Assembly (NCBI GenBank): GCA_034190875.2
Contig: CM067354.1
Location: 71,197,730 to 71,261,729 of the forward strand
DNA length: 64,000 bases
Direction of reading: 5' to 3'
Origin: Urechis unicinctus
Lineage: Eukaryota; Annelida; Polychaeta; Xenopneusta; Urechidae
Shown: one piece after another, positions 2,361 through 62,235 of the stretch
Layout of the letters: each line of letters starts with the position of its first letter
How positions within the stretch are numbered: position 1 is the stretch's first letter
Position numbers and translations under genes: made by a program
The notes under the pieces: generated by a model
Database searches by the model: none
Told to the model about the DNA's origin: nothing
What the model saw: the letters and a program-made list of their open reading frames with translations, nothing else

Positions 2361-2473
2361 CTATTTTGAGATATGAGCTCCTTAGAGGTTTAAGCATGTA
2401 TATAGCCTGAATGAGCCCTCGCGGTTTGGTTACGGGTCGTTTGGGTCCCCTTTGAGCTCTTGTGGGCTCCCAT

Positions 2474-2795
2474 GGGCCCCGCATGGTTCCCGCACATGCC
2501 CCGCATGGTTCCCGCACAGGCTCCACAGGGTTCCCGCACAGGCTCCAGAGGATTCCCGCACAGGCCTCACATGGTTCCCGCACAGGCTTCACATGGTTCC
2601 CACACAGGCCTCGCATGGTTCCCGCACAGGCCTCGCATGGTTCCCGCACAGGCCTCGCATTGTTCCCACACAGGCTCCACAGGGTTCCCGCACAGGCCTC
2701 GCATGGTTCCCGCACAGGCTTCACAAGGTTCCCGCACAGGCTCCACAGGGTTCCCGCACAGGCTCCACAGGGTTCCCGCATAGGCCCCGCATGAC
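2474..2795. repeat. GC-rich minisatellite, 22-bp unit
   Basis: About 14 copies of a 22-bp unit GGTTCCCGCACAGGC plus CTCGCAT, TTCACAT or CTCCACAG. Because 22 is not a multiple of 3 and the unit lacks stops, all three plus-strand frames and the minus strand stay open across the array (WFPHRP, GSRTGS, EPCEACAGT-type translations). These frames are artefacts of the repeat. It lies about 110 bp to the right of the SINE-like element. Confidence 0.93.
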
Positions 2796-3044
2796 TCAAT
2801 ACGGCCATTTTGGTGCATCCCGAGGTTCCGGCCGAGCACAAAACACCATTATCGTGTGATCATATGGAACTATATGGGACTGTTTAGTTAGAGGTCCGGA
2901 CTTGTGTGTAATTGTGTGTACATCGTAATTGACCACATGATACGTATGTCTATTTACATGATTCCGAATGCTGTCGGCAACGGAGCAGAGAAAAGAAAAG
3001 GTTGTTCTGAAGCAAAGACGATGGCGGACAATAACGAAGCCTCG

Positions 3045-4265
3045 TCGTTATTGTTTGTAGCGTCCACCAAATATCGCCGTCATTAATTGAAGCGTCCACC
3101 AAGTATCCCAGTCATTGTTTGTAGCGTCCACCAAATATCGCCGTCATTGATAGAAGTGTCCACCAAGTATCCCAGTCATTGTTTGTAGCGTCCACCAAGT
3201 ATCGCCGTCATTGATAGAAGTGTCCACCAAGTATCCCAGTCATTGTTTGTAGCGTCCACCAAGTATCGCCGTCATTGATAGAAGCGTCCACGAAGTATCC
3301 CAGTCATTGTTTGTAGCGTCCACCAAGTATCGTCGTCATTAATTGAAGCGTCCACCAAGTATCCCAGTCATTGTTTGTAGCGTCCACCAAGTACCACCAT
3401 CATTGAGAGAAGCGTCCACTAAGTATCCCAGTCATTGTTTGTAGCGTCCACCAAGTATCGCCGTCATTAATTGAAGCGTCCACCAAGTATCCCAGTCATT
3501 GTTTGTAGCGTCCACCAAGTATCGCCGTCATTGATAGAAGCGTCCACCAAGTATCGCCGTCATTGATAGAAGCGTCCACCAAGTATCCCAGTCATTGTTT
3601 GTAGCGTCCACCAAGTATCGCCGTCATTGATAGAAGTGTCCACCAAGTATCCCAGTCATTGTTTGTAGCGTCCACCAAGTATCGCCGTCATTGATAGAAG
3701 CGTCCACCAAGTATCGCCGTCATTGATAGAAGCGTCCACCAAGTATCGCCGTCATTGATAGAAGCGTCCACCAAGTATCCCAGTCATTGTTTGTAGCGTC
3801 CACCAAGTATCGCCGTCATTGATTGAACCGTCAGCAAAGTATCCCAGTCATTGTTTGTAGCGTCCACCTAGTATCGCCGTCATTGTTTGTAGCGTCCACC
3901 AAGTATCGCCGTCATTAATTGAAGCGTCCACGAAGTATCCCAGTCATTGTTTGTAGCGTCCACCAAGTATCGCCGTCATTGATAGAAGCGTCCACCAAGT
4001 ATCGCCGTCATTGATAGAAGTGTCCACCAAGTATCCCAGTCATTGTTTGAATCGTCCACCACGTACCACCATCATTGATAGAAGCGTCTACCAAGTATCC
4101 CAGTCATTGTTTGTAGCGTCCACCAAGTATCGCCGTCGTTGATTGTAGCGTCCACCAAGTATCCCAATCATTGTTTGTACCATCCACCAATTATCCCAGT
4201 CATTGATTGTGGCGTCCATCAAGTATCCCAGTCATTGATTGTAGCGTCCACCAAGTATCACCGTC
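3045..4265. repeat. Minisatellite with dimeric higher-order structure, 32-bp monomer
   Basis: About 38 monomers of 32 bp built on GCGTCCACCAAGTATC. Two monomer types alternate: type A (GTAGCGTCC...CGCCGTCATTGATA) and type B (GAAGCGTCC...CCCAGTCATTGTTT), giving a 64-bp dimer (monomer starts 3,121, 3,153 and 3,185). Runs of consecutive CGCCGTC monomers occur around 3,540-3,600 and 3,690-3,760. Monomers after about 4,180 are degenerate. Confidence 0.95.
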
Positions 4266-11899: not shown

Positions 11900-12115
11900 G
11901 GTGAGGTTAGGTGGGTGGTATGGTGCGGTTAGGTGGATGGGGTGATGAGGTAAAGTGGATGGGGTGATGAGGTAAAGTGGATGAATAGGTGGGTGGATAG
12001 GTGGGTGGGCTGGTAAGGTTAAGTGGATGGGGTGGTGAGGTTAAGTGGGTGGGATGGTGTAGTTGGTTAGGTGGATGGGGTGGTGAGGTTAGGTGGATGG
12101 ATGGTGTTGGTGGTT
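11900..12115. repeat. Irregular G-rich tandem repeat, ~20-23-bp unit
   Basis: About ten degenerate copies of GGTTAGGTGGATGGGGTGRTGA with variable length. It lies directly left of the retrotransposon remnant. Confidence 0.75.
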
Positions 12116-12199
12116 ACGTGTGTAAGATCATATAACAAATTATATAAAAACAAACCCACAACCATATTACGGCTATGCATGAGGTCAATAATGAAAAAC

Positions 12200-13446
12200 A
12201 AACCAACCATACGCCCTCTATTGGATGGTACCAATGATATTAACCAACCATATGTCCTAGATTGGATGGTGTAAATAATGTAAACTAACCATAGATATTG
12301 TATTGGATGGTGCCAATTATGTAAACCAACTATACGTCCTATATTGGATGGTGTAAATAATGTAAACCAACCATAGGTCCGATATTGGATGGTGCCAATA
12401 ATGTAAACCAACCATAGGTCCGATATTGGATGGTGCCAATAATGTAAACCAACCATAGGTCCTGTATTGGATGGTGCCAATAATGTAAAATAACCATTCT
12501 TAATTTATTTGATGGTGCCAATAATGTAAACCAACCATAGGCCCAATATTGGATGGTACCAATAATGTAAAATTACCATTCGTACTTTATTTGATGGTGC
12601 CAATAATGTTAACCAGCCATTGGTCCTATATTGGATAGTGCCAATAATGTAAAATAACCATTCTTAATTTATTTGATGGTGCCAATAATGTAAACCAACC
12701 ATAAGCCCAATATTGGATGGTACCAATAATGTAAAATTACCATTCGTACTTTATTTGATGGTGCCAATAATGTTAACCAGCCATTGGTCCTATATTGGAT
12801 AGTGCCAATAATGTAAACCAACCATAGGTCCTATATTGGATAGTGCCAATAATGTAAACCAACCAATCGTCCTACATTGGATTGTGCCAATGATGTAAAC
12901 CGATCATACGCCCTACTTCGGATGGTGCCAATAATGTTAACCAACCATGTCCCATATTGGATGGTGCCAATAATGTTAACCAACCATGTCCTAGGTCCTG
13001 TATTGGATGGTGCCAACAATGTAAACCAACCATAAGTCCTATAATGGATAGTGCCAATAATGTAAACCAACCAATCGTCCTACATTGGATTGTGCCAATG
13101 ATGTAAACCGATCATACGCCCTACTTCGGATGGTGCCAATAATGTTAACCAACCATATCCCATATTGGATGGTGTCAATAATGTTAACCATGTCCCATAT
13201 CCAATAATGTTAACCAACCATATCCTATATTGGATGGTGTCAATAATGTTAACCAACCATGTCCCATATTGGATGGTGCCAATAATGTTAACCAACCATG
13301 TCCCATATTGGATGGTGCCAATAATGTTAACCAACCATGTCCCATTTTGGATGGTGTCAATAATGTTAACCAACCATGTCCCATATTGGATGGTGCCAAT
13401 AATGTTAACCAACCATGTCCCACATTCCATGGTGCCAATAATGTAA
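12200..13446. repeat. 41-bp minisatellite seeded by retrotransposon codons
   Basis: About 30 copies of a 41-bp unit (39 bp near the right end), typically AAACCAACCATAGGTCCTAT plus ATTGGATGGTGCCAATAATGT. Read as codons the unit is KPTIGPILDGANNV, which is exactly what the retrotransposon encodes on its left edge (KPTIRPLLDGTNDI at 12,200-12,241) and its right edge (DGANNVISKDKERA). The array has therefore grown from the element's own linker codons. A four-monomer block (164 bp, marked by AAAATAACCATTCTTAATTT at 12,487 and 12,651) is duplicated inside. Confidence 0.93.
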
Positions 13447-14397
13447 TTTCGAAAGACAAGGAAAGAGCAGGTTTACTTGATGGTTAATTTGCAGCAGTAT
13501 ATTTTGACTAGATAGCAGGACGCCCGGAACAAATTAGATTATTCAACGGTGGTGGTGAGGAATAATTAGAGGCAACACCTTATAGTTAGGACGAATTGGT
13601 AACTTCGTTAAACTCAAACAAGGCACCTAGCCAGGACCCACGGGTTCTAAAAGAACTCACAGCAAACATATCGCTACCATTCTTAATCATATTCATCCAG
13701 TCCATGAATGAATGAACTGTTCCGGATGACTGGAAATGGGCTCATGTTACACCAATATCTACAAATGGCAATTACCGATTACATCCGCGGTGAGCAAAAT
13801 AATTGGAACATTTGTTTGAGGCAAACTCACAGAACACTAACTTGAACATAACGTATTGGACAAATCTCTGCATTATTTTCTGGAGTTTCTGGAGGACGTT
13901 ATGGTATACGCTGGGGACCCTGTTGATGTGATTTTATTTAGTTTGATAAAGTTCCCTACCATCGGTTAGCTAGCAAACCCATGACCCGCAGCCTCAAGGG
14001 CAATGTATTAGCATGGATAAATGAATGGCTTCGTAATAGAATGCTGAGAGTGGTGATAAAAGGCATTGAATCCGATTGGACCAGGGTTATCAGTGGTGTC
14101 GCTGAGGGGGCGGTCCTAGGATTCGATTGGACGAGGCTTATCAGTGGTGTCGCTCAGGAGGCGGTCCTAGGATCCGATTGGACGAGGCTTATCAGTGGTG
14201 TCGCTGAGGGGGCGGTCCTAGGACCCGTTCTTTTCTTAATCTACATAATTGATCTAGTCGGCGCTGTTGACGTAATGTTATAAATCAATTGCAGTTGACA
14301 CCGAACTTTACTCCAGCTTAAGGACCATAATCCCGTCATATATGTTAGACTGGGAAAATGACGGGCAAATGAAAAGTTTGGTGATTCCAATCTAAAT
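13447..14397 (+). pseudogene. Reverse transcriptase domain remnant of the CR1-type element
   Basis: In-frame blocks match the LINE RT order: DKERAGLL (13,455), PRVLKEL (13,638), VPDDWKWAHVTPI (13,719), VSKIIG (13,790), LEFLEDV...GDPVDVILF (to 13,939), then after a 1-bp-scale frameshift FDKVPYHRLASK (13,942), GNVLAWINEWLRNR, RVVIKGIESDW, SGVAEGAVLGPVLFLIYIIDL. The catalytic YADD box is degraded: at 14,288-14,311 another frame reads IAVDTELY, so one catalytic aspartate is replaced by valine. Further on MLDWENDGQMKS matches the usual W..WQMKFN region. Stops occur at 13,485, 13,713, 13,817 and 13,838. Confidence 0.9.
14071..14223 (+). repeat. 51-bp in-frame triplication inside RT motif
   Basis: Three copies of a 17-codon unit, 14,071-14,121, 14,122-14,172 and 14,173-14,223, each reading (S/F)DWTR(V/L)ISGVAEGAVLG or a close variant; copy 2 has QE instead of EG. 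LINE reverse transcriptases carry this motif once (SGVPQGSVLGP). Copies 2 and 3 share differences from copy 1 (ACG AGG CTT for ACC AGG GTT). Confidence 0.97.
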
Positions 14398-14830
14398 GAT
14401 GTGTCAGAGGAGAGGTGATGTGAAAGAGGAGAGGTGATGCGTCGGAGAGGTGATGTGTCAGAGGAGAGGTGATGTGTCAGAGGAGAGGTGATGTGTCAGA
14501 GGAGAGGTGATGTGCAAGAGGAGAGGTGATGTGTCAGAGGAGATATGATGTGTCAGAGGAGAGGTGATGTGTCAGATAAGGGGTGATGTGTCAGAGGAGA
14601 GGTGATGTGTCAGAGGAGAGGTGATGTGTCAGATGAGGGGTGATGTGTCAGAGGAGAGGTGAAGTGTCAGAGGAGAGGTGATGTGTCAGAGGAGAGGTGA
14701 TGTGTCAGAGGAGAGGTGATGTGTCAGATGAGAGGTGATGTGTCAGAGGAGAGGTGATGTGTCAGAGGAGAAGTGATGTGTCAGATGATAGGTGATGTGT
14801 CAGAGGAGAGGTGATGTGTCAGATGAGAGT
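14395..14830. repeat. 19-bp minisatellite seeded by retrotransposon codons
   Basis: About 22 copies of GATGTGTCAGAGGAGAGGT. At the left edge the retrotransposon frame reads SNLNDVSEER (14,386-14,415); at the right edge DVSDESDSGVIINQS (14,813-14,857). These are the two sides of the LINE motif normally read as L..VxEEKDLGVIID, so the repeat unit equals the DVSEER codons plus 1 bp. A 19-bp period destroys the reading frame. Confidence 0.93.
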
Positions 14831-15165
14831 GATTCAGGTGTCATAATTAATCAGTCATATAAATCCAGCAAACAATGCAGCGCAACAGCAGTAAAGGCTA
14901 ACGGAGTTCCCGGGATGGTCAGACGGACGGTCCCTGGTCGCTTTAAGGGAGATTTATCCAACTTTACAAGGCGCTTGCTAGGCTGCATGACGTCAACGTG
15001 ACGTAGATATATTGGAAAAGATACAAAGGCTCGCTATTAAGCTCGTAGCCGGTATGTTTGAGTTAGGTTACGAACGAAGATAGCACTTGTTAGGACAAAC
15101 AACTCTCAAATATAGTGTTCGCTGGTTAGAGAGTCGTAATTAATCTGTCTGAGCTAGTGAAAAGT
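14831..15165 (+). pseudogene. C-terminal remnant of the CR1-type ORF2
   Basis: Readable blocks are SGVIINQSYKSSKQCSATAV and KANGVPGMVRR (compare DLGVIIDxSLKFSxQCxxAVKKANRVLGMIRR), then from 15,004 VDILEKIQRLAIKLVAGMFE and LGYERR, stop, HLLGQTTL (compare DIDLLEKVQRRATKLIPG...YEERLxxLGLTTLE). The frame shifts near 15,000 and the sequence is not recognisable beyond about 15,165. Confidence 0.85.
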
Positions 15166-43117: not shown

Positions 43118-43584
43118 ATGATCAGTTATGTGAATGACTAGTTAGCCAATGCCCACTGGTTCCGGGATGTTAAGCCCAGCAAACTGAAATATTTATTTTG
43201 ATGGTACAATATAAATTATTCGAGAACAATGATGTAAGTTCACACAAACGTATTACCTTATTTTATGATCATGCTGGTGAGAGCCAACAGATCATACAGC
43301 GAGGTTATCAGACCACCCGTGACCTGAAGGTTTCGTTCGCTTTATTATGTTTTCTTTGTATTACGCTAACATGCTAACTTGCAGTTCAAAGTTTTTATTC
43401 ATTCCATCATCCACAATGTTTGATGTACTATCTTTCATTGCCGTCGGCTTAGTTAGAAACCACTTTGCAGCTCTCTTATGTTCTTCAACAACTATGTAAT
43501 GGACCGAGAATGATAGGCCTAGTTGAATATGATATGTACAAAATGCTAGGGATAATAGTCGATAGTTAATAAACCTGCGCTAAA

Positions 43585-43850
43585 TACAGGCGAAGATTCC
43601 ACCCCATTCCTGACCCTCAGCAGATCGATAATTCTGCCCTATTCCAGACCTCTAGCAGACCGATGATTCTGCCCTATTCCTAATTTCCAGCAGACCGATT
43701 ATTCTGCCCAATTCCTGACCTCGAGCAGACCAATGATTCTGCCCTATTCCTGACCTCTAGCAGAGAGATGATTCTGCCCTATAAACGACCTCCACAGACC
43801 GATGATTCTGCCCTATTCCCGACCTCCAGCAGACGGATGAATACGGAGTT
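43585..43850. repeat. Minisatellite, 35-bp unit (copy 1)
   Basis: About seven copies of GATTCTGCCCTATTCCTGAC plus CTCYAGCAGACCGAT. Equivalent to 54,865-55,125. Confidence 0.92.
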
Positions 43851-44569
43851 TCAACAGATGTATATTTATTACTGTGAGACATAGCTAGAATACATACACT
43901 CCTCTGTATGGCAATGTCTTAGATATACTTCTGTAAGCTTACATTAGATGATTTAGTCTACATAATCATACCTTAAGAGAAATAAGCGGATAATATGTTT
44001 GGATACATCGGTCATTTCTGATATCAGGTTGTAAGGGATCACTCATTGAAAGTCTTAAATTGTGTTTAACTGGGCGAAAGCTTTTGCAACGATTGTCTAG
44101 GCATCTGTCAACTGACACTGCATTGACCACAACCAAGATTGGACCGTACCAAAGTATGACATTACTCAATGTGTCTTAAATGCTTACCGGGCGTTTAAAG
44201 CGTTAACTCACAATCAGCAGGTTATCAGTTGGTATGCATAATTACTTGACAAGCTACACGACGTCATGGAAGTTTTGAATGTTTACGCAAATCACATTAA
44301 CGCATGTGCTTTTGTATTTGCCTTAGCGTGATATATGGTATTGTGCGAAATGTATCTCCATGTTGTCATCGCCATCTTCACATTGCTCACATTTAATACG
44401 TATCATCGACGATCATAGTGGAATCTCATTTGACTGCCATTCATCTTTGTCTATAAAGGAACATTAAATTGGCCCAGTCTACTTACATAACAGTACGATG
44501 TACGATGAACAATGGATGCTCGTCTCAGTCGGCGAACCATTATGCTGTAGATATCCATGTTGCTGATAG

Positions 44570-45225
44570 ACGTGGGTGACCCACCAGTAAATACGGGTGG
44601 CGTTACCCTATGCCCGGGTAGTGCCATGGAATATCCGGGTGACGTTGCCCTATGCCTGGCTAACGCGTAGGACTATCTGGGTGGCGTTGCCATGTGCCTG
44701 GTAAACGCTGGGGACTATCCGGGTGACATTGCCCTAAGCCAGGTTAATGCCGGGGGCAATACGGGTGACGTTGCCCTATGCCTGGTTAACGCCGGGGACA
44801 ATCCGGGAGACGTTGCCTTATCTCTGTTGAAGGCCGGGGACTATCCGGGTGACGTTGCCCTATACTTGGTTAACGCCGGGGACTATCCAGATGACGTTGC
44901 TCTATGCCTGGTTAGCGCCAGGGACTATCTGGGTGACATTGTCCTATGCCTGGTTAACGCCGGGGACTATCCAGATGACGTTGCCATATGCCTGGCTGAC
45001 GCCGGGGACTATCCAGGTGACGTTGCCCTATGCCTGGTTAACACCGGGGACTATCCGGGTGACGTTGTCCTATGCCTGGTTAACGACGGGGACTATCCAG
45101 ATGACGTTGCCCTATGCCTGGTTAACGCCGGGGACTATCCGGGTGACGTTGTCCTATGCCTGGTTTACGCCGGGGACTATCCGGGAGACGTTGCCCTATG
45201 CCTGGCTGAAGCCAGATACAGATGT
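44570..45225. repeat. Minisatellite, 42-bp unit (copy 1)
   Basis: About 15 copies of GGTGACGTTGCCCTATGCCT plus GGTTAACGCCGGGGACTATCCG. As 14 codons it reads GDVALCLVNAGDYP, giving ORFs of 179 codons (44,692-45,231) and 144 codons in another frame. I regard these as array by-products, although the frame is open in both copies. Confidence 0.94.
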
Positions 45226-45311
45226 CTATGAGCCACCTTGGCGTCGGTATTGTTGGAGGATAGTGAGGCCGGGGTTGATTTAGCCAGTCCAATTTAGAAA
45301 CAGTTCATCAA

Positions 45312-45480
45312 CATCAATGGACGGCCATTTTAAGCAGTTCTTATCCCTACATCAAGGTGAATGAATATAATCAGCACCACTTTTTGCCCCTAACGGTCCT
45401 TTCTGTGCAATCTTCTTGGCAATGGGGTGTACGGCTGCCACATGAATCATATTTGTGAGGGACAATTTGATTGTTTAGGC
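45312..45480 (+). repeat. Dispersed repeat copy (CCAGGTTGCC family) in duplication copy 1
   Basis: Aligns with 39,960-40,134 as described there; its duplicate is at 56,488-56,656. Confidence 0.55.
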
Positions 45481-45621
45481 CAATACGGGTCACGTACTAT
45501 GCGCATTCTCTGGAGCAGAATTGAGACAAAAGTGGCTGACAAACCAAAGACAAAAAGGGTGGCACTTTACATATCTTATACTTAAGTCACATGAGACTAA
45601 CATGTGCCTACTGGCCCCGCA

Positions 45622-45825
45622 TGAATATTTCATGAAATTTATAACATTTTGACCCATTTCCACTGCAGCACATTATGCCATCATGTTGCATCATAAGCTG
45701 TGCTGATAGCTAAAGACATTAAAAGACTATGAATGTTGCACGTTATGTGCCGAGTATTCATAATGCAACTTAATGTGCTGCAGTGGAATTGGGGACAAAA
45801 TGTTATAAATTTCATGAAGTATTCA
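45622..45825. repeat. Foldback (imperfect palindrome) element (copy 1)
   Basis: The left arm reads GAATATTTCATGAAATTTAT AACATTTTG... CCACTGCAGCACATTA; the right arm is its inverse, TAATGTGCTGCAGTGG...CAAAATGTTATAAATTTC ATGAAGTATTC. Arms are about 65-75 bp around a spacer of roughly 60 bp. Structure fits a small foldback element or MITE of about 200 bp. The duplicate lies at 56,798-57,001. Confidence 0.85.
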
Positions 45826-46162
45826 ATAATTTGTAATTTTCCAATTTATGGCTACTGCACATTTCCATCATAACGGGGCTCAGTTTCATAATGAAATAAA
45901 AAAGCGCTTATTTTCATTTTAATTATTATGATGATTATTGATTACATACCCTGACCACACGTGACACATATGTGTCATATTTGGTGTGTGTTTCTAGTAA
46001 GTACAGACCAACACTGCCTGACAATTGTGACAAACAGCAGCACGTCTTCCAACCACTTAATTGTTTAATGTAGATGGCAATGCCAAATGTTTTGTATAAA
46101 TGTGCTGAACATCCGATGCTTCTGCTAGTTTGCAGAGGCCTAGTTAAAAACTGGCGTCCTCT

Positions 46163-46498
46163 GTGTCTCTGTACAATAATGCTGTTGTATTCACGTTCTC
46201 TCCGTTTTATACATCGTCCGCCTTAGCAAGTCGATATACATATTGTTTCTATAGCCAGACTGCTGCGTTTGATATCTCTCCAGGTGAACAACATGGTCGG
46301 TCAACAGTTGAAGAGTACAATGTAGCCCTAAGAACGAAAGAGCCTATTCGCATCATTACAATTGTACACTCCTATAACATGCGAATTGGGCGCTTCATTA
46401 GTAAATACTGTTCTGATCATTTGGAACTCTTTGGCATGTCACTAGTCGACCAGCAACATCATGTGCTGTTTCATGGCACTAGTCGACCAGCAACGTGA
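46163..46498 (+). CDS. Hypothetical 111-codon ORF (copy 1)
   Basis: The first ~90 residues (MSLYNNAVVFTFSPFYTSSA... HLELFGMSL) lie outside the tandem array and the last ~20 inside it. The duplicate at 57,339-57,674 is also open, with about three replacement and three silent differences in the pair by eye, so there is no sign of constraint. No recognised domain. I list it because the frame survives in both copies. Confidence 0.15.
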   Translation: MSLYNNAVVFTFSPFYTSSALASRYTYCFYSQTAAFDISPGEQHGRSTVEEYNVALRTKEPIRIITIVHSYNMRIGRFISKYCSDHLELFGMSLVDQQHHVLFHGTSRPAT

Positions 46499-47285
46499 TA
46501 TGCTGCATGGCAGTAGTCGACTAGCAACGTCATGTGCTGTTTTATGTCACTAGTCGACCAGCAACGTCATATGCTGTTTTATGGCACTAGTCGACCAGCA
46601 ACGTCATGTGCTGTTTTATGTCACTAGTCGACCAGCAACATCATATGCTGTTTCATGGCACTAGTCGACCAGCAACGTCATATGCTGCATGGCATTAGTC
46701 GACTAGCAACGTCATGTGCTGCATGGCATTAGTCGACTAGCAACGTCATGTGCTGCATGGCACTAGTCGACTAGCAACGTCACGTGCTGTTTCATGGCAC
46801 TAGTCGACCAGCAACATCATGTGCTGTTTCATGGCTCTATTAGACCAGCAACATCATATGCTGTTTCATGGCACTAGTCGACCAGCAACATCATATGCTG
46901 CTTCATGTCACTACTCGACCAGCAACGTCATATGCTGCATGGCATTAGTCGACTAGCAACGTCATGTGCTGCATGGCATTAGTCGACTAGCAACGTCATG
47001 TGCTGCATGGCACTAGTCGACTAGCAACGTCACGTGCTGTTTCATGGCACTAGTCGACCAGCAACATCATGTGCTGTTTCATGGCTCTATTAGACCAGCA
47101 ACATCATATGCTGTTTCATGGCACTAGTCGACCAGCAACATCATATGCTGCTTCATGTCACTACTCGACCAGCAACGTCATGTGCTGTATGGCACTAGTC
47201 GACCAGCAACATCATGAGCTGCTTCATGGCACTAGTCGACCAGCAACATCATATGCTGCTTCAGGACATTGGTCAACCAGCAACA
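46430..47285. repeat. Minisatellite, alternating 34- and 37-bp units (copy 1)
   Basis: About 24 copies of units CATGGCACTAGTCGACCAGC plus AACATCATATGCTGTTT (37 bp) or the variant with GACTAGCAACGTCATGTGCTG (34 bp). A 250-bp block is duplicated without visible change (46,681-46,930 and 46,931-47,180). Confidence 0.95.
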
Positions 47286-47800
47286 TGCCTTTCGGAATGC
47301 GTCTACTAAGCATTTCACAATTTAACATGTTCAAGTGGCTGCGTCCGCTAATGTGAACGATTTATTAAATATCGCAAAACATTGCATACCTCAGCAGTAT
47401 GGTATCAATTGGACATGGTTATGCAACATCACGACAGACATAAGCGCAAGATGACTCAGATTATGTTCAACTCATGGTCTGTTGTGAGCTGCAATAATCT
47501 ACTCTCAATGTACCATGATTCTTCTGTCTGATTATTGAAGATCTCGCCAGTTCTCCACCTTCAGCTCATATAATCCTGGAATGAGGGCTTTAAAGAACTG
47601 AATAGCTGAGGTTATGTTGCAGAAGGGAATATGTCCTAAATATAGTGAGTCTTTGAACCAATGCTTTACAGTGTATCATGATAGATTTGATTTGAGGTTA
47701 AAACCAAGCCTTCAGTTAATTATTGGTTTAAGTCCATATATGTTATCTTCACAAGATTTGATTCATACTATTTGTTTAAAATTTAAAATAAATACCCATC
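47286..47800. other. Spacer in duplication copy 1
   Basis: About 500 bp. A 64-codon ORF (47,614-47,808; duplicate 58,349-58,540) is open in both copies but has no recognised content. Confidence 0.4.
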
Positions 47801-47804
47801 CTCA

Positions 47805-47925
47805 ATGAGTTATTGGATCTACTTTATTGACCTTTGATCATCTTTAATGGGTTATTGGATCTACTTTATTGACCTTTGACCATCTTTAATGGGTTATTGG
47901 ATATACATTATTGACCTTTGACGAT
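47805..47925. repeat. Short tandem repeat, ~42-bp unit (copy 1)
   Basis: Three copies of GGGTTATTGGATCTACTTTA plus TTGACCTTTGACCATCTTTAAT. Equivalent to 58,535-58,665 in copy 2. Confidence 0.88.
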
Positions 47926-48149
47926 GTTTAGCCAAAATTAATACCTCTGTTTATTGTCATATCATTGCATGACATGTAGAATAGCACCTGTTAATACGAT
48001 CATCTAATGGCGCCTGTCACGTGGTGTTATTGTTTCCTAGCTTCATTACAAACATAAAGCAATAATCATAAAAGAAATCATCCGAGGAGGCACGTAACTA
48101 ATAGACAACACAAGTTATGCACCAGTTGTGAATGATTGTGCTAGTGATT

Positions 48150-48340
48150 GCTAGAGCACGCAGGAATATTGGTGCTATTGATTGATCCACAGCACGCAGT
48201 TATATCGGAGCTATTGATTGATCCACAGCATGCAGGAATATTGGTGCTATTGATTGATCCACAGCACGCAGGAATATTGGTGATATTGATTGATCCACAG
48301 CACGTAAGAATATTGGTGCTATTGATTGATCCACTTCATC
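48150..48340. repeat. Minisatellite, 36-bp unit (copy 1)
   Basis: Five to six copies of CACGCAGGAATATTGGTGCT plus ATTGATTGATCCACAG. Codon reading GILVLLIDPQHA on the plus strand, VDQSIAPIFLRA on the minus strand. Equivalent to 58,885-59,070. Confidence 0.92.
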
Positions 48341-49245
48341 TACTCGCTTTGCCAATTCGCATACCAAAGAACGAAGGACTGATGTGCGCGTGTCCGTCAG
48401 GCGCTATGGAAAGGTTCTAATAATGATTGTCACTGGACCACTCTATGCAGGTTTTAGCACCTGGTGAGATCTTGATTAAAGCACAAATGCAAGAAAAACA
48501 CGTCACGGGTTTATAGATTCTCGCTGTATTTTAATACAACTTATTTCACAAATATCACCTTGTCTTTATATAAGTGGCCTCACATGGTCGCTGAGTATCC
48601 AGCGGATATCAGCATGGATCCCCCCGGTCTATGATCCCATGCCAATCTGGATACATCTCAAATGTCGGGCACAGTCTGATCAAAAGAAACAACGTTCGCG
48701 AGTTGATATGTAGGAGCGGTGTTCCTGATGTGAGGCTGGAGGTGAAGCGAACTAACAGAAAGCACTCTATTCATGGTTTAACCATGTTATTTGACCACAT
48801 TGTTAATGAGGCAGCTTATTTGAAAGTGACGAACAGCGTGTATTTGGCAATGAAGATTACTAGGTCTAATGTGATTTTGCAGGCCTTTGTTCGATTGGTG
48901 CTCATCATGTTAGAGGGGCAGTGTGTTAACCTGATTGTAAGCTAATCATTGTAGTAGAATTTGCAAAGATGTTTAGTGATGACGTATTACTCCTGCCTGG
49001 TTTATACATTACAGCCCAGTAATATATATTCAGTGGACGACGAGTAGAGGCCTCATTCTACAGGTCAACGAATCATAAGGAGGGAGCGGAGCACATACAT
49101 AATAGAAGTCTCTACACCCGATACTTCCCCAGCATTTTCCTAAGTGATTTGTTGAACACTTTATATGATAGTGGTTATAAATTGTGGAAGGTGACTGACA
49201 CCTTGGATGAAGTAGAATTTGGCAACGCAAATGATGTGAACTTGG
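48341..49245. other. Spacer with a 104-codon ORF in copy 1 only
   Basis: The ORF at 48,631-48,945 (MIPCQSGYISNVGHSLIKRN...) is interrupted in copy 2, where one C is missing near 59,526 (TTTAACATG for TTTAACCATG), leaving 63 codons. This argues against a conserved gene. No domain recognised. Confidence 0.4.
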
Positions 49246-49421
49246 TGGCAGGATTAGAAATTGGTGTACATAATGTTAGCCCCATGATGATCCTACAGCA
49301 AGATTTAATTGGTGTACATCACGTTAGCCCCATGGTGATCCTACAGCAGGATTTAATTGTCATGATGGATGGCTATGATTGGTTGATATTAATGAAACAT
49401 TGGATTGAATTGAATGATTAG
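49149..49421 (+). CDS. Hypothetical 90-codon ORF (copy 1)
   Basis: Reads MLNTLYDSGYKLWKVTDTLD EVEFGNANDV..., followed by two in-frame 16-codon repeats (IGVHNVSPMMILQQDL type, DNA period 48 bp at 49,260-49,355). The copy-2 frame (59,841-60,167) is open and starts 18 codons earlier. Composition is protein-like but no family is recognised. Confidence 0.18.
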   Translation: MLNTLYDSGYKLWKVTDTLDEVEFGNANDVNLVAGLEIGVHNVSPMMILQQDLIGVHHVSPMVILQQDLIVMMDGYDWLILMKHWIELND

Positions 49422-49865
49422 TAGGTAGATGACTGCTTTTGATGTGAAGAAGATCAGCCGAGACGATGTGTCTGATGATGGTCATCGACGAACAGATCCA
49501 ATCGTATGTGACCCAGTTCATGGAGTTACATTAGGATGTGATAAAACTTCGACCATCTTTATTGAAAATGGTTGTGTATGGATGTAAGACGATATTTGTA
49601 AGGTTGTGTAAAATAGGAGCTTGAGTCCTGTATAATGCAATGAATGCAATAGCTGATTAATAATATTCTCTGTATTTCTGCAATAAGCATGTGATTGCTG
49701 ACATCAGCTCTAAGGGTTTCTTATACCTAGTCGCTAGATCGTTACATCACATGACTTTCTTAGCCAATGAATAAACGCACCACGAGTCAGGATAGTCATG
49801 GCTTGTTGGAGTACGGCATGAGAGGACAAGGATGATTGATTGATCTCCGTGCCTGCGGTAAAGTG
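49422..49865. other. Spacer without recognisable gene (copy 1)
   Basis: About 440 bp. Copy 2 has about 35 extra bases here (ACACTAGCATTTCAATGCGT... at about 60,258-60,290). Confidence 0.4.
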
Positions 49866-49869
49866 TATG

Positions 49870-50235
49870 CTCCTGTGTAGTATCATGTATACTTTAAGCT
49901 CATATTCCTCTATTTACTTTGCATTCTTGTATTATTGTAATGTATATTGGTCATGTATATTTATGTGTATGCATGGGTGCGCTTTTAGTTGATATTCCTC
50001 TTTTTACTTTGTATTCATGTATTCTTGTCATGTATGTTTTATGAATGTTGCATTGAGTTATATGTATGCATGTGTGCGATTTTAGTTCATATTCCTCTAT
50101 TTACTTCGTTTTCATGTTTTATTTCACTGGTTTGTTTTGATGTATGTGTAATGAACGTTGGATAAACAGTTGTATCATGTATTTTTGTGTGTGCTTGAAG
50201 TTCGTATTCCTCTATTTATTTCGTAATCTTGTTTT
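49870..50235. repeat. Degenerate ~100-115-bp tandem repeat (copy 1)
   Basis: Four diverged copies marked by CATATTCCTCTATTTACTTYG (49,903; 49,992; 50,089; 50,206 approximately) each followed by CATGTATTYTTG-like sequence. Equivalent to 60,675-61,010. Confidence 0.75.
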
Positions 50236-50349
50236 TGATTGGTTTTTATAAATGATCAATTATTACATTATGTGCTATTGTCATAAATGGAATATACCAC
50301 ACATTCTTCTGGTGCTCGGTTTTTGCATCTTTCTCCTTTTTTTCGAGGA

Positions 50350-50965
50350 GCATATCGTCCGGAGACGACAGCCCGATGAACTTACGGAAGTAAGCAGGTA
50401 ACGCTTCGGTTTGACTTCCCATCAATTTCAGCTATAAGTTGAACATCATTACTAATTTTGATATATTACAAAATTACTGAGACTCGCGGAAACTTGCATA
50501 CATATCTAAAACAAAATATCATGAAAAATACACCGATGGGTTAAACCTCATGGTTTATGTGGATCCGTCGGAGATCAGATGAACTTACGGAAGCAAGCAA
50601 GTAAGGCTTGTATGATATTTCCTACTAATTTCAGCTTTAAGTTGGACATAATAACTCATCTTGATTTATTAGACAATTCATGAAACTCACCGAATCCTGC
50701 AGTTATATCTTGTACAATATATCATAAAATATGTGACCATGGGTTCACCCTCATAGCTTATCTGGATCCCTCGGAAGTCCGTTTAACTTGCAGTCATATT
50801 TTTAACTCATTCCAACCATAGGTTAAACCCATTTGTATATTTCACAAATTCCCACACACTAACGCACACTGGCACGTATATCTTGAACAATATATCCTAA
50901 AAAAAGTTACATCCATGGATTCAATATCATAGTTTTTCTGGATCCCGAGGAACTGTGGGAAAGAG
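50350..50965. repeat. Diverged satellite-like repeat, ~175-205-bp unit (copy 1)
   Basis: Three diverged units marked by GATGAACTTACGGAAGYAAGC (50,374; 50,578; and a weaker GAGGAACTGTGGGAAAGAGC near 50,947), AATTTCAGCTWTAAGTTG, ATATATCATGAAAAAT and GGGTTAAACCTCATGGTTTA. Unit length resembles that of nucleosome-sized satellites, but only three units are present. Duplicate at 61,125-61,735. Confidence 0.8.
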
Positions 50966-50974
50966 CAAGTATAA

Positions 50975-51013
50975 CTGTATATATACATAAATATCTATAT
51001 ATATATATTTATA

Positions 51014-51046
<33 letters not shown>

Positions 51047-51204
51047 TAATATGTACGCATATATGTGTACTATATATATCTAAACTCATACATATATATA
51101 TATATATATATTTTGTAAATATATATGTATATATATTTATGTATGGACATATATATATATATATAATATATATATATATTCATTTATATACATATATATA
51201 TATG

Positions 51205-51235
<31 letters not shown>

Positions 51236-51279
51236 CTATATATGTATGTATATATATATGTATGCATATATATATGTAC

Positions 51280-51322
<43 letters not shown>

Positions 51323-51324
51323 AA

Positions 51325-51423
<99 letters not shown>

Positions 51424-51455
51424 TTTTGTATGTGCATATATATAAACTATATATA
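50975..51455. repeat. Degenerate AT-rich tract with (TA)n (copy 1)
   Basis: Interrupted TATATA/TATATG tract ending in a pure TA run at about 51,365-51,420. The equivalent in copy 2 (61,750-62,230) has longer pure TA runs. Confidence 0.93.
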
Positions 51456-52060
51456 TTTAAGCCGCTTTACCCTACGACCTCCGGCTTGCTTTTACTTACG
51501 ACTCAATCAATATATTGAACAGTCATTTCTCGTGGGCATTTGACACTTTCCATGTCGGTTGCACATTGTGCAACTGCTTAACGCCCTATCTCTGACAGCA
51601 AATTTGTGGGCAATGGACAATAAGCCATTTTTTGTCTACTGCCTCGTCTATCAACAAAACACTATTTTATGATCGATTGTAATCTTGAGTGCTAGTTATG
51701 TATACTGCTTGAATCCGCAGATGTTTGTACAGAGGCCAGGATGCGGCAAGATGAACGTCTTTGGCTATGATTCCCGTCCTCGTTCAAATTGAGATCGTCA
51801 ATCCTATCCATCCTGTTGTCATTGCTTTGAAGACCTCTGGGAGTTCCTGCTATTCATTGCCGGCCGTCAATTGATGATGTATGCCCATTCATAATGTAGC
51901 ATGACGGAGAGGGATATTAGGATAGTTGATAGGTTTTGCTGTCACCGCCCCCTGCCCGTCTCATTTTACCTGTGTCGTATGTGTGCTCCTCCCCACTCTC
52001 AGAGGTATATATTGGGGCCTTCCCCGTCTACAACACTATCCCTATCCATGACGTGCAATA
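51456..52060. other. Spacer without recognisable gene (copy 1)
   Basis: About 600 bp. The part from about 51,950 resembles 30,940-31,010, so it may belong to the dispersed repeat. No gene recognised. Confidence 0.45.
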
Positions 52061-52063
52061 GCA

Positions 52064-54390
52064 GAAAACGCTCTACACTCCACCGAGTTATTGCATCGTG
52101 ACATAATGTGATATTTGCTTGGCAAAGTTTATTGCCGACATATGATCATTTAGCGAATGTATGTGCAATGATGAGCGCTGGTCGCAGAAAACACTACTTG
52201 AAATTAAACTGGAGCCGATGACCAAGGGGAATAATTATGCGCAGTTAACCAGTTTCAAAATATTCTGCCGTCCGCACAGATACAATGCCGATTCAATCGA
52301 AGTTCAATCCATTAAACGTTAGAGTTATTAAATTCAGCAAACATAATACCAACTCACACCGATTACATTTCAAGATTCATTAAAAATGATGTCCAATCAA
52401 ATTTATAGCTGAGCTTTGCTAACCGACTTCTGGTGCCTCGAAGTGGATATTGCATTAAGTACAGAATGTTATAGTGCCATACGGCGTTAGATCAAAACGG
52501 GCCAATGTCGACACGTACCGATAGAAATCAATCGATGCTGTTTCGTCGCTTGCTAAAGCAAGGGCCCTTGTAATCAGACCGTTGGTTTGTACGCAAACCT
52601 TAGGAGCATGATAAAGAGGTATATATCCATCCGACCCACCTATTGACACAAAGGAACGTGATTAAATCTCTATGGGAAACTTACTAGGAGACGTTTGACC
52701 CTCATGTAACACGAATCCAACTGGCTCCCGATGGTCAATAGATAACAGATAATTGTAATTTACTGGAGGTTGAATGTAAATGAAATATTCCCAATGCAAC
52801 CCCAAGCCGTCAAAAAGGACCGTTATCTAGACATTGATCTAATGAACTCGTGTGATGAACAATTCTAGTTAGTCATTCTTCCAGGAAATATTAATGAGAG
52901 ACATGAATAATGCATGTAGCAGAACACAAGATGCCTCACAGTGTACTTAATCTCATCACCTGACAGTCCTTGGTGTTCAACCTGAGAGTAACCTTCTTAG
53001 CTTCCCATAGCAGATGTGCGTTAGCGTGGTAAGATGGAGATAATGGAATAATTGATCTTGTTGCTGTTGAATATGTTGACACATAAAGCCGCATCAGTCG
53101 TTGTATGTCTTCTCTATGGCGCCGCCGTCAGCCCTTGCCGATTGGCAGCTCATCCAATGTGAAAACAGGATTTGTCTCATATGCATTCGTGTCTGAGTGC
53201 AGCAGCCATATAGAACAGACTAATGTCACAACTAGTTTTATGTGTCTTTTGTTCAAAAACCACGGCGCATCATAGGGTACCAGGTGAAAATCACATCGCA
53301 GTGGAAGGTACCAGGTGAATAACACGCCACAGTGGTGGACACCAGGTGAAAAAGTACATGCCGCTATGCGCAGCATCTAAATGCGCATCCAACGATTTTA
53401 AGCCGCTGGCACTTCTCTAGGCCTAAGTTCTGGCCGAAGTGCAGGCCAAGGTGCAAACCGATGTGCAAACTGAAGGGCAAACTGAAGTGCAGGCCGATGT
53501 GCATCGCATAATAGTTATTCCTAAGCGACAAAATTCCACAACACAAACGTTGGTTCCCACATTCATGCAGTTGACCTTGACGCACAAATCCCTTTCCCAG
53601 TGATCCATCCAGACAAACCATGGGCTGAGATCCTGACCAAAGCCAAGACGAGTTCGAGGAAAACGGGGCGTTTGCTTTCTTTTTAGGGGTAGAAAAGAGC
53701 ACTGGACGCCAAAATGACGGGATGCTTCCAATGCGGCCATGCAAACTCAATACCAAAGACAGCTTGGTGGCAGGTGTCACGTTGGACTTTATCAGAAGAA
53801 GAAAAGGCCGGTACGATATTGTAATCATCTTTCCGCCACAGCAAGTGCTTTGACTGGCACTGCAAGTGCTTTGATTGGTACTAACAATGTCTTCTGTAGG
53901 AACGGCTGCTCCTTAACCACCTTCATGTGTGGTATCTATCAACTGTGTAACCCTAAACCGCAGTGGGAAATCATGCTGAAGGCTTCATCGGGGAATCTTA
54001 CAGAAGGCTCAGAAGGGAATTATACTGAAGGCGTAGAGGGGAACTATACTGAAGGCTTAGAGGAGAACTATACTGAAGGCCCTAGTAGGTTATTATACTG
54101 TAGGCCCCAGAGGGGAATCTTGCTGAAGGACCTAGCGGGAAACCATACCGACAGTTTCATAAGGGAATCTTACTGAAGGCCTCATCAAGAAATCTTATTG
54201 CAGGCCACTAGTAGGGTATTATACTGAAGGCCCAATTGTATTATTATTCTGTAGGCCTAGAGGGTATTATACTGAAAGCCCTAGTGGGGTATTATACTGT
54301 AGGCCTAGGGGGTATTATACTGAAGGCCCTAGTGGGGTATTATACTGTAGGCCCTAGTGGGGTATTATACTGAAGGCCCTAGTGGGGTTT
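52064..54390 (+). repeat. Dispersed ~2.3-kb repeat inside duplication copy 1
   Basis: Closely similar to 27,015-29,305 and 62,843-64,000. It includes a 12-bp repeat block (53,435-53,505), about 120 bp not found at 28.9 kb (53,580-53,697), and ends in a 26-bp array. No intact ORF is common to the copies. Confidence 0.88.
53970..54390. repeat. Minisatellite, ~26-bp unit at the duplication junction
   Basis: About 16 units of GTATTATACTGAAGGCCCTA plus GTGGGG, with GGGAATCTT and AACTATACT variants on the left. The junction with copy 2 falls directly at its right end. A shorter version (about five units) closes the 27-kb copy at 29,180-29,300. Confidence 0.9.
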
Positions 54391-54864
54391 ATTATGATCA
54401 GTTATGTGAATGACTAGTTAGCCAATGCCCACTGGTTCCGGGATGTTAAGCCCAGCAAACTGAAATATTTATTTTGATGGTACAATATAAATTATTCGAG
54501 AACAATGACGTAAGTTCACACAAACGTATTACCTTATTTTATGATCATGCTGGTGAGAGCCAACAGATCATACAGCGAGGTTATCAGACCACCCGTGACC
54601 TGAAGGTTTCGTTCGCTTTATTATGTTTTCTTTGTATTACGCTAACATGCTAACTTGCAGTTCAAAGTTTTTATTCATTCCATCATCCACAATGTTTGAT
54701 GTACTATCTTTCATTGCCGTCGGCTTAGTTAGAAACCACTTTGCAGCTCTCTTATGTTCTTCAACAACTATGTAATGGACCGAGAATGATAGGCCTAGTT
54801 GAATATGATATGTACAAAATGCTAGGGATAATAGTCGATAGTTAATAAACCTGCGCTAAATACA

Positions 54865-55125
54865 GGCGAAGATTCCACCCTAATCCTGACCCTCAGCAGA
54901 TCGATAATTCTGCCCTATTCCAGACCTCTAGCAGACCGATGATTCTGCCCTATTCCTAATTTCCAGCAGACCGATTATTCTGCCCAATTCCTGACCTCGA
55001 GCAGACCAATGATTCTGCCCTATTCCTGATCTCTAGCAGAGAGATGATTCTGCCCTATAAACGACCTCCACAGACCGATGATTCTGCCCTATTCCCGACC
55101 TCCAGCAGACGGATGAATACGGAGT
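54865..55125. repeat. Minisatellite, 35-bp unit (copy 2)
   Basis: Same number and order of units as at 43,585-43,850, so this array has been stable since the duplication. Confidence 0.92.
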
Positions 55126-55789
55126 TTCAACAGATGTATATTTATTACTGTGAGACATAGCTAGAATACATACGCTCCTCTGTATGGCAATGTCTTAGAT
55201 ATACTTCTGTAAGCTTACATTAGATGATTTAGTCTACATAATCATACCTTAAGAGAAATAAGCGGATAATATATTTGGATACATCGGTCATTTCTGATAT
55301 CAGGTTGTAAGGGATCACTCATTCAAAGTCTTAAATTGTGTTTAACTGGGCGAAAGCTTTTGCAACGATTGTCTAGGCATCTGTCAACTGACACTGCATT
55401 GACCACAACCAAGGTTGGACCGTACCCAAGTATGACATAACTCAATGTGTCTTAAATGCTTACCGGGCGTTTAAAGCGTTAACTCACAATCAGCAGGTTA
55501 TCAGTTGGTATGCATAATTACTTGACAAGCTACACGACGTCATGGAAGTTTTGAATGTTTACGCAAATCACATTAACGCATGTTCTTTTGTATTTGCCTT
55601 AGCGTGATATATGGTATTGTGCGAAATGTATCTCCATGTTGTCATCGCCATCTTCACATTGCTCACATTTATTACGTATCATCGACGATCATAGTGGAAT
55701 CTCATTTGACTGCCATTCATCTTTGTCTATAAAGGAACATTAAATTGGCCCAGTCTACTTACATGTAGATATCCATGTTGCTGATAGAC

Positions 55790-56400
55790 GTGGGTGACCC
55801 ACCAGTAAATACGGGTGGCGTTACCCTATGCCCGGGTAGTGCCATGGAATATCCGGGTGACGTTGCCCTATGCCTGGCTAACGCGTGGGACTATCTGGGT
55901 GGCGTTGCCATATGCCTGGTAAATGCTGGGGACTATCCGGGTGACATTACCCTATGCCCGGTTAATGCCGGGAGCAATACGGGTTACGTTGCCCTATGCC
56001 TGGTTAACGCCGGGGACAATCCGGGTGACGTTGCCTTATCCCTGTTGAAGGCCGGGGACTATCCGGGTGACGTTGCCCTATACTTGGTTAACGCCGGGGA
56101 CTATCTTGGTGACGTTGCCCTATGCCTGGTTAACGCCGGGGACTATCCAGATGACGTCGCCATATGCCTGGCTGACGCCGGGGACTATCCAGGTGACGTT
56201 GCCCTATGCCTGGTTAACACCGGGGACTGTCCGGGTGACGTTGTCCTATGCCTGGTTAACGACGGGGACTATCCAGATGACGTTGCCCTATGCCTGGTTA
56301 ACGCCGGGGACTATCCGGGTGACGTTGTCCTATGCCTGGTTTACGCCGGGGACTATCCAGGTGACGTTGCCCTATGCCTGGCTGAAGCCAGATACAGATG
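55790..56400. repeat. Minisatellite, 42-bp unit (copy 2)
   Basis: Equivalent to 44,570-45,225. It lacks about one unit around 56,100-56,120. The 210-codon frame starting at 55,775 is longer than in copy 1 because of small changes near its start. Confidence 0.93.
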
Positions 56401-56487
56401 TCTATGAGCCACCTTGGCGTCGGTATTGTTGGAGGATAATGAAGCCGGGGTTGATTTAGCCAGTCCAATTTAGAAACAGTTCATCAA

Positions 56488-56656
56488 CATCAATGGACGG
56501 CCATTGTAAGCAGTTCTTATCCCTACATCAAGGTGAATGAATATAACTAGCACCACTTTTTGCCCCTAACGGTCCTTTCTGTGCAATCTTCTTGGCAATG
56601 GGGTGTACGGTTGCCACATGAATCATATTTGTGAGGGACAATTTGATTGTTTAGGC
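56488..56656 (+). repeat. Dispersed repeat copy (CCAGGTTGCC family) in duplication copy 2
   Basis: Duplicate of 45,312-45,480. It reads ACGGTTGCCACATGAATCAT at about 56,606, slightly closer to the CCAGGTTGCC form of the single copies. Confidence 0.55.
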
Positions 56657-56797
56657 CAATACGGGTCACGTACTATGCGTATTCTCTGGAGCAAAATTGA
56701 GACAAAAGTGGCTGACAAATAAAAGACAAAAAGGGTGGCACTTTACATATCTTATACTTAAGTCACATGAGACTAACATGTGCCTACGGGCCCCGCA

Positions 56798-57001
56798 TGA
56801 ATATTTCATGAAATTTATAACATTTTGACCCATTTCCACTGCAGCACATTATGCCATCATGTTGCATCATAAGCTGTGCTGATAGCTAAAGACATTAAAA
56901 GACTATGAATGTTGCACGTCATGTGCCGAGTATTCATAATGCAACTTAATGTGCTGCAGTGGAATTGGGGACAAAATGTTATAAATTTCATGAAATATTC
57001 A
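56798..57001. repeat. Foldback element (copy 2)
   Basis: Duplicate of 45,622-45,825. Here the right arm ends ATGAAATATTC, pairing better with GAATATTTCAT than copy 1 does (ATGAAGTATTC). Confidence 0.85.
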
Positions 57002-57338
57002 ATAATTTGTAATTTTCCAATTTATGGCTACTGCACATTTCCATCTTAACGGGGCTCAGTTTCATAATGAAATCAAAAAGCGCTTATTTTCATTTTAATT
57101 ATTATGATGATTATTGATTACATACCCTGACCACACGTGACACATATGTGTCATATTTGGTGTGTGTTTCTAGTAAGTACAGACCAACACTGCCTGACAA
57201 TTGTGACAAACAGCAGCACGTCTTCCAACCACTTAATTGTTTAATGTAGATGGCAATGCCAAATGTTTTGTATAAATGTGCTGAACATCCGATGCTTCTG
57301 CTAGTTTGCAGAGGCCTAGTTGAAAACTGGCGTCCTCT

Positions 57339-57674
57339 GTGTCTCTGTACAATAATGCTGTTGTATTCACGTTCTCTCCGTTTTATACATCGTCCGCCTT
57401 AGCAAGTCGATATACATATCGTTTCTATAGCCAGACTGCTGCGTTTGATATCTCTCCAGGCGAACAACATGGTCGGTCAACAGTTGAAGAGTGCAATGTA
57501 GCCCTAAGAACGAAAGAGCCTATTCGCATCATTACAATTGTACACTCCTATAACATGCGAATTGGGCGCTTCATTAGTAAATATTGTTCTGATCATTTGG
57601 AACTCTTTGGCATGTCCCTAGTCGACCAGCAACATCATATGCTGTTTCATGGCACTAGTCGACCAGCAACGTGA
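57339..57674 (+). CDS. Hypothetical 111-codon ORF (copy 2)
   Basis: Duplicate of 46,163-46,498. Replacement differences include C to R and Y to C in the non-repeat part and V to M in the repeat part. No recognised domain. Confidence 0.15.
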   Translation: MSLYNNAVVFTFSPFYTSSALASRYTYRFYSQTAAFDISPGEQHGRSTVEECNVALRTKEPIRIITIVHSYNMRIGRFISKYCSDHLELFGMSLVDQQHHMLFHGTSRPAT

Positions 57675-57995
57675 TATGCTGCATGGCATTAGTCGACTAG
57701 CAACGTCATATGCTGCATGGCATTAGTCGACTAGCAACGTCACGTGCTGTTTCATGATACTAGTCGACCAGCAATATCATGTGCTGTTTCATGGCTCTAT
57801 TAGACCAGCAACATTATATGCTGTTTCATGGCACTAGTCGACCAGCAACATCATATGCTGCTTCATGTCACTACTCGACCAGCAACGTCATGTGCTGTAT
57901 GACACTAGTCGACCAGCAACATCATGAGCTGCTTCATGGCACTAGTCGACCAGCAACATCATATGCTGCTTCAGGACATTGGTCAACCAGCAACA
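57606..57995. repeat. Minisatellite, alternating 34- and 37-bp units (copy 2)
   Basis: About 11 units, less than half of copy 1. The 250-bp block that is doubled in copy 1 is not doubled here. Confidence 0.94.
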
Positions 57996-58534: not shown

Positions 58535-58665
58535 CAATGAGTTATTGGATCTACTTTATTGACCTTTGATCATCTTTAATGGGTTATTGGATCTACTTTA
58601 TTGACCTTTGACCATATTCAATGGGTTATTGGATATACATTATTGACCTTTGACGATGTTTAGCC
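58535..58665. repeat. Short tandem repeat, ~42-bp unit (copy 2)
   Basis: Three units as in copy 1. Confidence 0.88.
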
Positions 58666-60670: not shown

Positions 60671-60674
60671 TACT

Positions 60675-61735: not shown

Positions 61736-61747
61736 AGCAAGTATAAC

Positions 61748-62235
<488 letters not shown>

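Follow-up and report, generated by a model that had tools for sequence, protein, structure and literature searches.

How does a minisatellite come to lie inside a retrotransposon, and which of the two was there first? The question is raised by a 64,000-bp stretch of Urechis unicinctus DNA (the window; C13:71197730-71261729 of a 1.19-Gb genome, which was itself searched), in which a 41-bp tandem array interrupts a CR1-like LINE. The evidence below makes us highly confident that 41 bp of the LINE's own linker was duplicated in place and then expanded to 31 units, and that this happened after the element had been inserted into the genome.

A 41-bp minisatellite of 31 units

A minisatellite with a 41-bp unit and about 30 copies had been proposed in a sequence-only reading of the locus. 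TRF, unit decomposition and the collapse test described below place it at 12200..13446 on the plus strand, with a period of 41 over 12200-13190 and a period of 164, equal to four units, over 12200-13446 in TRF. Wraparound alignment resolved 12200-13446 into 31 units and a 2-bp tail. Units 1-18 and 21-23 are 41 bp long, units 19, 24 and 26-31 are 39 bp long, and two units are of odd size (unit 20, 46 bp; unit 25, 26 bp). The right end of the array is formed by six consecutive 39-bp units (13211..13444, plus strand; unit decomposition).

Read in its own phase, the 41-bp unit encodes KPTI(G/R)P(I/L)LDGANNV or a near-equal sequence. It does not consist of whole codons (about 14), as the earlier reading had it, since 41 is not a multiple of 3 and every 41-bp unit moves the reading frame. 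Stops number 36, 25 and 25 in the three forward frames, which together with the frame shift indicates that the array has no coding role. The sequence NKPTIRPLLDGTNDI, which had been taken for unique sequence entering the array, is essentially unit 1, and the unique left arm is at ~12130-12199. The exit sequence, ANNVISKDKERAGLLDG, comprises, as claimed, the final part of the last unit and then LINE.

The mean pairwise identity among units is 80%. Against this mean, the four-unit block of units 8-11 (12487..12650, plus strand) is repeated as units 12-15 (12651..12814, plus strand) with 163 of 164 positions identical, and units 16-19 (12815..12976, plus strand) are repeated as units 21-24 (13023-13183) with 157 of 162 positions identical. 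These identities are direct evidence that the array grew by blocks.

A decayed extra unit in the left flank was considered, with 12158-12197 aligned to the unit. An alignment as good was obtained in 4 of 1000 shuffles for 12140-12199 and in 51 of 1000 for 12107-12199, and this candidate was rejected since sister copies align through the flank.

The array lies within a fossil LINE

The host element is a fossil CR1-like LINE, 5'-truncated, which occupies ~12130-12199 and 13447-15110 and carries stops and frameshifts. We call it 'CR1-like' only, the clade name CR1 being a presumption from motifs. The array had been read as lying between adjacent parts of one LINE ORF; the position between adjacent parts of one LINE is borne out, but the ORF is not intact, being a broken remnant whose detectable sequence starts at ~12130.

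The left arm (12130..12199, plus strand) contains the linker upstream of the unit, and its start is the 5' limit of detectable LINE in blastn of sister copies. Sister copies at 10 places (L017, L023, L032, L021, L026, L014/L031, L037, L015, L028 and L043) aligned within 12130-12238 at 72-86% identity by blastn, the best DNA match through the left arm having E=1.8e-20; the matches of L021 and L037 stop before the unit, at 12175 and 12197. Blastn of sister copies against the window gave no LINE match between 6000 and 12130.

The right arm begins with the end of the linker (ISKDKERAGLLDG), followed by the first part of the reverse transcriptase (RT) region with stops and frameshifts (13447..14069, plus strand; tblastn and profile). 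The RT region continues (GPVLFLIYIIDL ...) at 14228..14396 (plus strand; tblastn of L003 and a profile of five ORFs), and the C-terminal part of the ORF at 14834..15110 (plus strand; tblastn and blastn) is the last clearly detectable LINE. In tblastn, the ORF2 of L003 matched the window colinearly between 13419 and 15110 (E=1.1e-21), and the five-ORF profile (L001-L005) matched from 13425 to 15116, other matches in the window having E values of 0.2 or worse. The window's own broken RT pieces gave no RT/RVT_1 match in Pfam or PDB searches.

ORF2 of L003 contains RVT_1 (E=1.2e-33) and, at residues 100-303, Exo_endo_phos. Its endonuclease part had no credible tblastn match in the window, and no APE-type endonuclease was found there by profile and blastn, which is expected if the copy is 5' truncated and indicates a fragment rather than a whole element. 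The endonuclease part of L005 was matched by sister copies L017, L026 and L015 (correspondence judged by eye). L001-L005 are five contigs with long LINE ORFs obtained by scanning genome contigs for the FDKVPH pattern; the linker pattern found nothing in genome contigs, and viral contigs scanned for the linker, RT-motif and FDKVPH patterns and for a relative of L003 yielded no relative. The five contigs are filed under bacterial and archaeal genomes, one of them from a mussel symbiont, and long LINE ORFs in such contigs look like eukaryotic contamination.

Genome searches found no intact copy of the window LINE's close family. With a 53-residue RT query, at least one stop was present in the matched stretch in 25 of the 29 best other matches (hand count), and the longest open frame among these 29 was 177 residues. 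The close family therefore looks extinct. Some RT matches at 34-43% identity sit in frames of several hundred residues, up to 1,212.

Sister copies carry the unit once

A double-unit query of the own genome, with three candidates scored, found 15 matches within the window array and, outside it, two single units. Both outside matches are LINE copies that contain the segment once at the corresponding place, with no array there. The single-unit state reads ...ANHIKTNP*AFYDYVRSKLKTKETIGLLLDGANNGILED... in L014 and ...VTIGPLLHSANNVIPEG... in L015; L014 also has a 26-base unit-like stretch ~480 bases upstream. When the right arm served as query, 347 candidates were listed, and the 40 that were scored yielded 46 matches. 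Sister copies are 65-84% identical to the right arm, and with this divergence the exact sequence of the window copy before duplication is not preserved in them.

For the collapse test, the left arm, one unit and the right arm were joined and compared with 61 loci. The junction was spanned by alignments at 13 distinct other places (L014/L031, L017/L046, L055, L053, L023, L043, L050, L032, L035, L026, L015, L027 and L028), and the best match, to L014/L031, was 79% identical over 230 bp (E=2e-50). For 12 of these 13 relatives the length between the breakpoints was listed: exactly 41 bp in eight, 42 bp in L028, 36 bp in L053 and L055 and 33 bp in L027. L053 and L055 may be one duplicated insertion, as flanking sequence is common to both. 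Wherever both arms aligned, the intervening sequence was unit-like, though deletions have shortened it in L035, L027, L053 and L055, with a gap of ~20 bp at the unit in L035.

With L017:1250-1750 as query, 33 of the 40 scored copies (of 306 candidates; L017 itself counted) crossed the linker in one alignment without an extra unit, their genome span being no more than 8 bp longer than that of the query (hand count). The alignments of the remaining seven begin at query base 203-267, at most 5 bases ahead of the unit or further on; among them, L019 and L029 contain unit-like sequence once, L024 has an array of its own and L020 an unrelated 31-bp array. No 41-bp array was found in any other copy examined in the own-genome searches; since 40 candidates per DNA query were scored out of 306-997, and common words may be passed over, a further array-bearing copy might have escaped detection.

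LINE sequence on both sides of the array, colinear arms and a single unit in sister copies together indicate that the LINE seeded the repeat. That the ORF seeded the satellite, rather than a foreign satellite inserting into it, had been suggested in the sequence-only reading, and it is supported by the single-unit site aligned at 13 other places and by the 41-bp segment in 8 of 12 relatives. Of the other copies looked for on that account, sister copies have unit-like sequence once, and the intact but distant L003 and L005 have the homologous linker once. No intact copy devoid of unit-like sequence was found. The copies without the unit are all damaged: after the left arm, L021 and L037 resume at a point deeper in the element, and the LINE match of L022 ends before the unit is reached.

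The unit resembles the linker of intact relatives

L003 and L005 are intact, more distant relatives with a homologous linker present once. In a hand layout, the linker of L003 (NRVRVGPLKDNSGNIVSESGAIADLLNSYF) and the collapsed reading of the window (NKPTIRPLLDGTNDI followed by ISKDKERAGLLDGxF) are of equal length; L005 agrees, L002 is one residue shorter and L001 differs. Shuffle tests of the consensus unit against the linkers of L003, L005, L002 and L001 gave p values of 5e-5, 0.0015, 0.04 and 0.28, and unit 1 gave 0.0009, 0.003, 0.016 and 0.22 in the same order. The right flank gave 0.0001, 0.0002, 0.0001 and 0.002. Likeness at the protein level was weak for the last, 39-bp unit (0.008, 0.08, 0.09 and 0.04) and for the left flank (0.006, 0.39, 0.06 and 0.05). 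The likeness of the unit and of the right flank to the L003 linker exceeds chance (5e-5 and 1e-4).

Other arrays in the LINE family

Two further arrays were detected by TRF within the window LINE. The second (14070..14227, plus strand) consists of 3.1 copies of a 51-bp unit, equal to 17 codons of the RT motif (SDWTRLISGVAEGAVLG), with the copies in frame. After collapse it is spanned by alignments in 29 other loci, and ten of the 12 relatives listed have a segment of 51 bp. The third (14397..14833, plus strand) consists of 23 copies of a 19-bp unit made of LINE codons just before a DLGVI-like stretch; its collapsed form is spanned in 19 other loci, and of the 12 relatives listed, ten have a 19-bp segment and two an 18-bp one.

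We surveyed arrays in the 61 loci. Apart from the window these are 53 distinct places, and 52,153 bp of their sequence is common to at least three other loci. The arrays were collapsed and tested, the 41-bp array separately since TRF gave it a 164-bp period. LINE sequence was present on both sides, in at least two other loci, at nine places: the three window arrays and L021, L024, L047, L054, L065 and L050. Seven of these are duplications of the LINE's own sequence, three in the window and four in other copies (L021, 24 bp x 2; L024, 33 bp x 2.9; L047, 37 bp x 8.9; L054, 37 bp x 5), and at none of the nine was a long array of foreign sequence found between two LINE arms. L065 (14 bp x 2) was rejected as an in-LINE duplication, relatives having about the same total length there with no clear added length, and so was L050 (13 bp x 1.9), where no relative spans the array. 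Single-copy relatives of the L024 array were few (two loci of one place in one test, four alignments in another). The count leaves out arrays whose units are AT-rich or simple and whose spans are spurious (L014 5489-6047, L018/L048 and L039), as well as those of L053/L055, which match mainly each other.

The 33-bp array of L024 (1416-1512 of the reverse-complemented locus) lies in the linker, with breakpoints unlike those in the window; by this difference, duplication of the linker seems to have occurred on two occasions in the LINE family.

Two loci contain arrays of another kind. In L020, a 31-bp x 15 array (1017-1488 of the reverse-complemented locus), with a unit unlike LINE, ends inside the linker. 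In L043, 52-bp arrays with a common unit core (807-1374 and 2463-3296) lie on either side of a LINE fragment, and the LINE may here have inserted into a pre-existing minisatellite, which is the opposite order of events.

Genomic setting

Arrays of period at least 10, with simple units excluded, make up 31.6% of the window, which was chosen for its arrays, compared with 4.8% of eight 5-kb stretches drawn at random from the same genome. In 8-kb bins, array density drops across the window from 49% to 15%, and 2.5-kb samples showed mostly array ~10 kb to the left of the window and none ~13 kb to the right. The array-rich tract is a lead rather than a test, the window having been picked for arrays. 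Outside the window, the idea that array-bearing LINE copies sit in array-rich flanks was unsupported (mean 4.2% for four copies, 5.1% for 49; p=0.46). A subtelomeric setting was rejected, as the contig, 79.6 Mb long, extends 8.3 Mb beyond the window. The window also contains a ~10-kb duplication (43118-53178 and 54394-63997; 93.7-99.1% identity in pieces) whose internal arrays differ between the copies, a 37-bp unit being present 23.6 times in one and 10.7 in the other, a sign of array-length change.

We entertain, with some doubt, the possibility that this tract turns any DNA into minisatellites by frequent near-blunt tandem duplication, irrespective of sequence, and that the dead LINE is a reporter of that activity. 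If this were true, sister copies would record the starting sequence and the LINE family would be a genome-wide panel for minisatellite starts.

Origin and growth of the array

The events that we propose begin with a 5'-cut CR1-like LINE, probably already without function, at ~12130-15110, in which 41 bp of the linker between endonuclease and reverse transcriptase would have been duplicated head to tail, in place. The array would be later than the insertion, given its absence from the sister copies examined, which provides an order of events and not a date. Satellite sequence of other origin inserted into the LINE, with a chance likeness to the linker, would give a similar arrangement, and contact between TE and array without descent does occur, as some arrays adjoin LINE fragments on one side only and have units unlike LINE (L020, 31 bp x 15). 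Against such an insertion, the window unit is the LINE's own sequence at its exact place, 41 bp long in sister copies, and the own-genome search found the 41-bp array nowhere else among the candidates scored; we regard this origin as almost inconceivable. It is very improbable that the array arose earlier, in the source element or its RNA, and was brought in by retrotransposition. Internal tandem repeats are a family trait in LTR12 and L1PA, as reported in PMC3389668, but the 41-bp array is absent from the other copies examined, and the relatives listed hold the 51-bp and 19-bp segments about once. Near-identical four-unit blocks (163/164) are difficult for assemblers, and the array or its copy number might for that reason be an assembly error; yet the units differ from one another (mean pairwise identity 80%), and diverged LINE-derived units could hardly be artefactual, which makes an error of this kind extremely improbable.

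Descent from the LINE is thus the reading that we adopt, and the manner of the first duplication is a separate matter. We infer a small tandem duplication with near-zero homology at the breakpoints (AA, 2 bp). In the collapsed copies, breakpoint homology is 2 bp for the 41-bp array, 1 bp for the 51-bp array, 4 bp for the 19-bp array and 0 bp for L021 (24 bp), L054 (37 bp) and L047 (37 bp; its right edge is uncertain, the segment lengths in relatives being 25-51 bp). These six are all of the in-LINE duplications but L024, where part of the LINE is missing inside the unit. Among the relatives listed, at most 12 per array, the homology is 0-4 bp. Random breakpoints in four family copies had a mean of 0.68 bp, with at least 3 bp in 5% and at least 5 bp in 0.4%. 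Six junctions are too few to tell slight microhomology from none.

The duplication might instead have started by slippage or unequal exchange between flanking repeats of CAATAATG, in the manner of the Haber-Louis model, since this 8-bp sequence is present in the left arm (12186..12193, plus strand) and again at the unit's end. The two are 46 bp apart, not 41, and are thus out of register by 5 bp, so that an identical later loss of 5 bp would be needed in every unit, and several sister copies read CAAAACTG at 12186-12193. Moreover, no listed relative of the six arrays has a junction homology of 5 bp or more, and the direct repeats of 5-10 bp at unit ends that the model invokes were found in none of the six arrays or the relatives listed. 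From the spacing and the different reading in sister copies, the CAATAATG pair is treated as later or due to chance, which is not proven, and a start by this route appears unlikely, though not negligibly so.

A small, near-blunt tandem duplication could arise by end joining after fill-in at a staggered break, a candidate route whose enzymes we can only suggest. Growth to 31 units would have followed by further duplications, including those of whole four-unit blocks, perhaps via unequal exchange or break repair between units.

Relation to known minisatellites and significance

TE-derived minisatellites are already known as a kind. In the human genome, 7,276 of 31,472 minisatellites are TE-derived, and known start mechanisms explain 6% of them (Ahmed and Liang 2012, PMC3389668). 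As described there, the human arrays also consist of the TE's own sequence, are mostly single-locus and grow over time. Compared with the arrays of that account, the present one comes from a LINE ORF linker, has a single-unit state in sister copies and is one of three arrays in one fossil. It has a unit from the TE itself, colinear TE on both sides and, in the searches made, other copies without the array, as is the case for TE-derived minisatellites. Minisatellites from Alu, B1 and LTR elements are likewise on record (PMC6947457). Satellites related to LINE ORF2 include chicken HinfI/SCR1 (from CR1) and PROsat and Pvc20 (from LINE-1), which similarly are tandem repeats holding part of a LINE ORF2, one of them of CR1; as presented in PMC9659126 they are satellite families, whereas here a 41-bp piece forms a minisatellite at one locus.

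The Haber-Louis origin, as set out in PMC6947457, involves a local tandem duplication followed by growth, as proposed here, but requires repeats of 5-10 bp at the unit ends, whereas the arrays of the window family have 0-4 bp. Fill-in by CST and Pol alpha-primase at breaks with 3' overhangs leads to small tandem duplications in human and mouse cells (PMC8355091). By analogy with that work, which concerns human and mouse only, this route would yield short duplications with near-blunt joins like those observed here.

The present case contributes a record of both ancestor and descendant for the coding linker of a LINE, and such records recur within the family. A minisatellite's beginnings are difficult to trace, as the ancestor with a single copy has generally been lost, and, by the figures in PMC3389668, ~94% of TE-derived human arrays are without an explained start. 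In a multi-copy dead LINE, each sister copy serves as an empty-site control. This family contains seven arrays with a readable single-copy state, and homology is slight or absent at the six junctions read. If every copy of the family were extracted, the breakpoint homology, unit length, position and rate of such duplications would be measurable in one genome.
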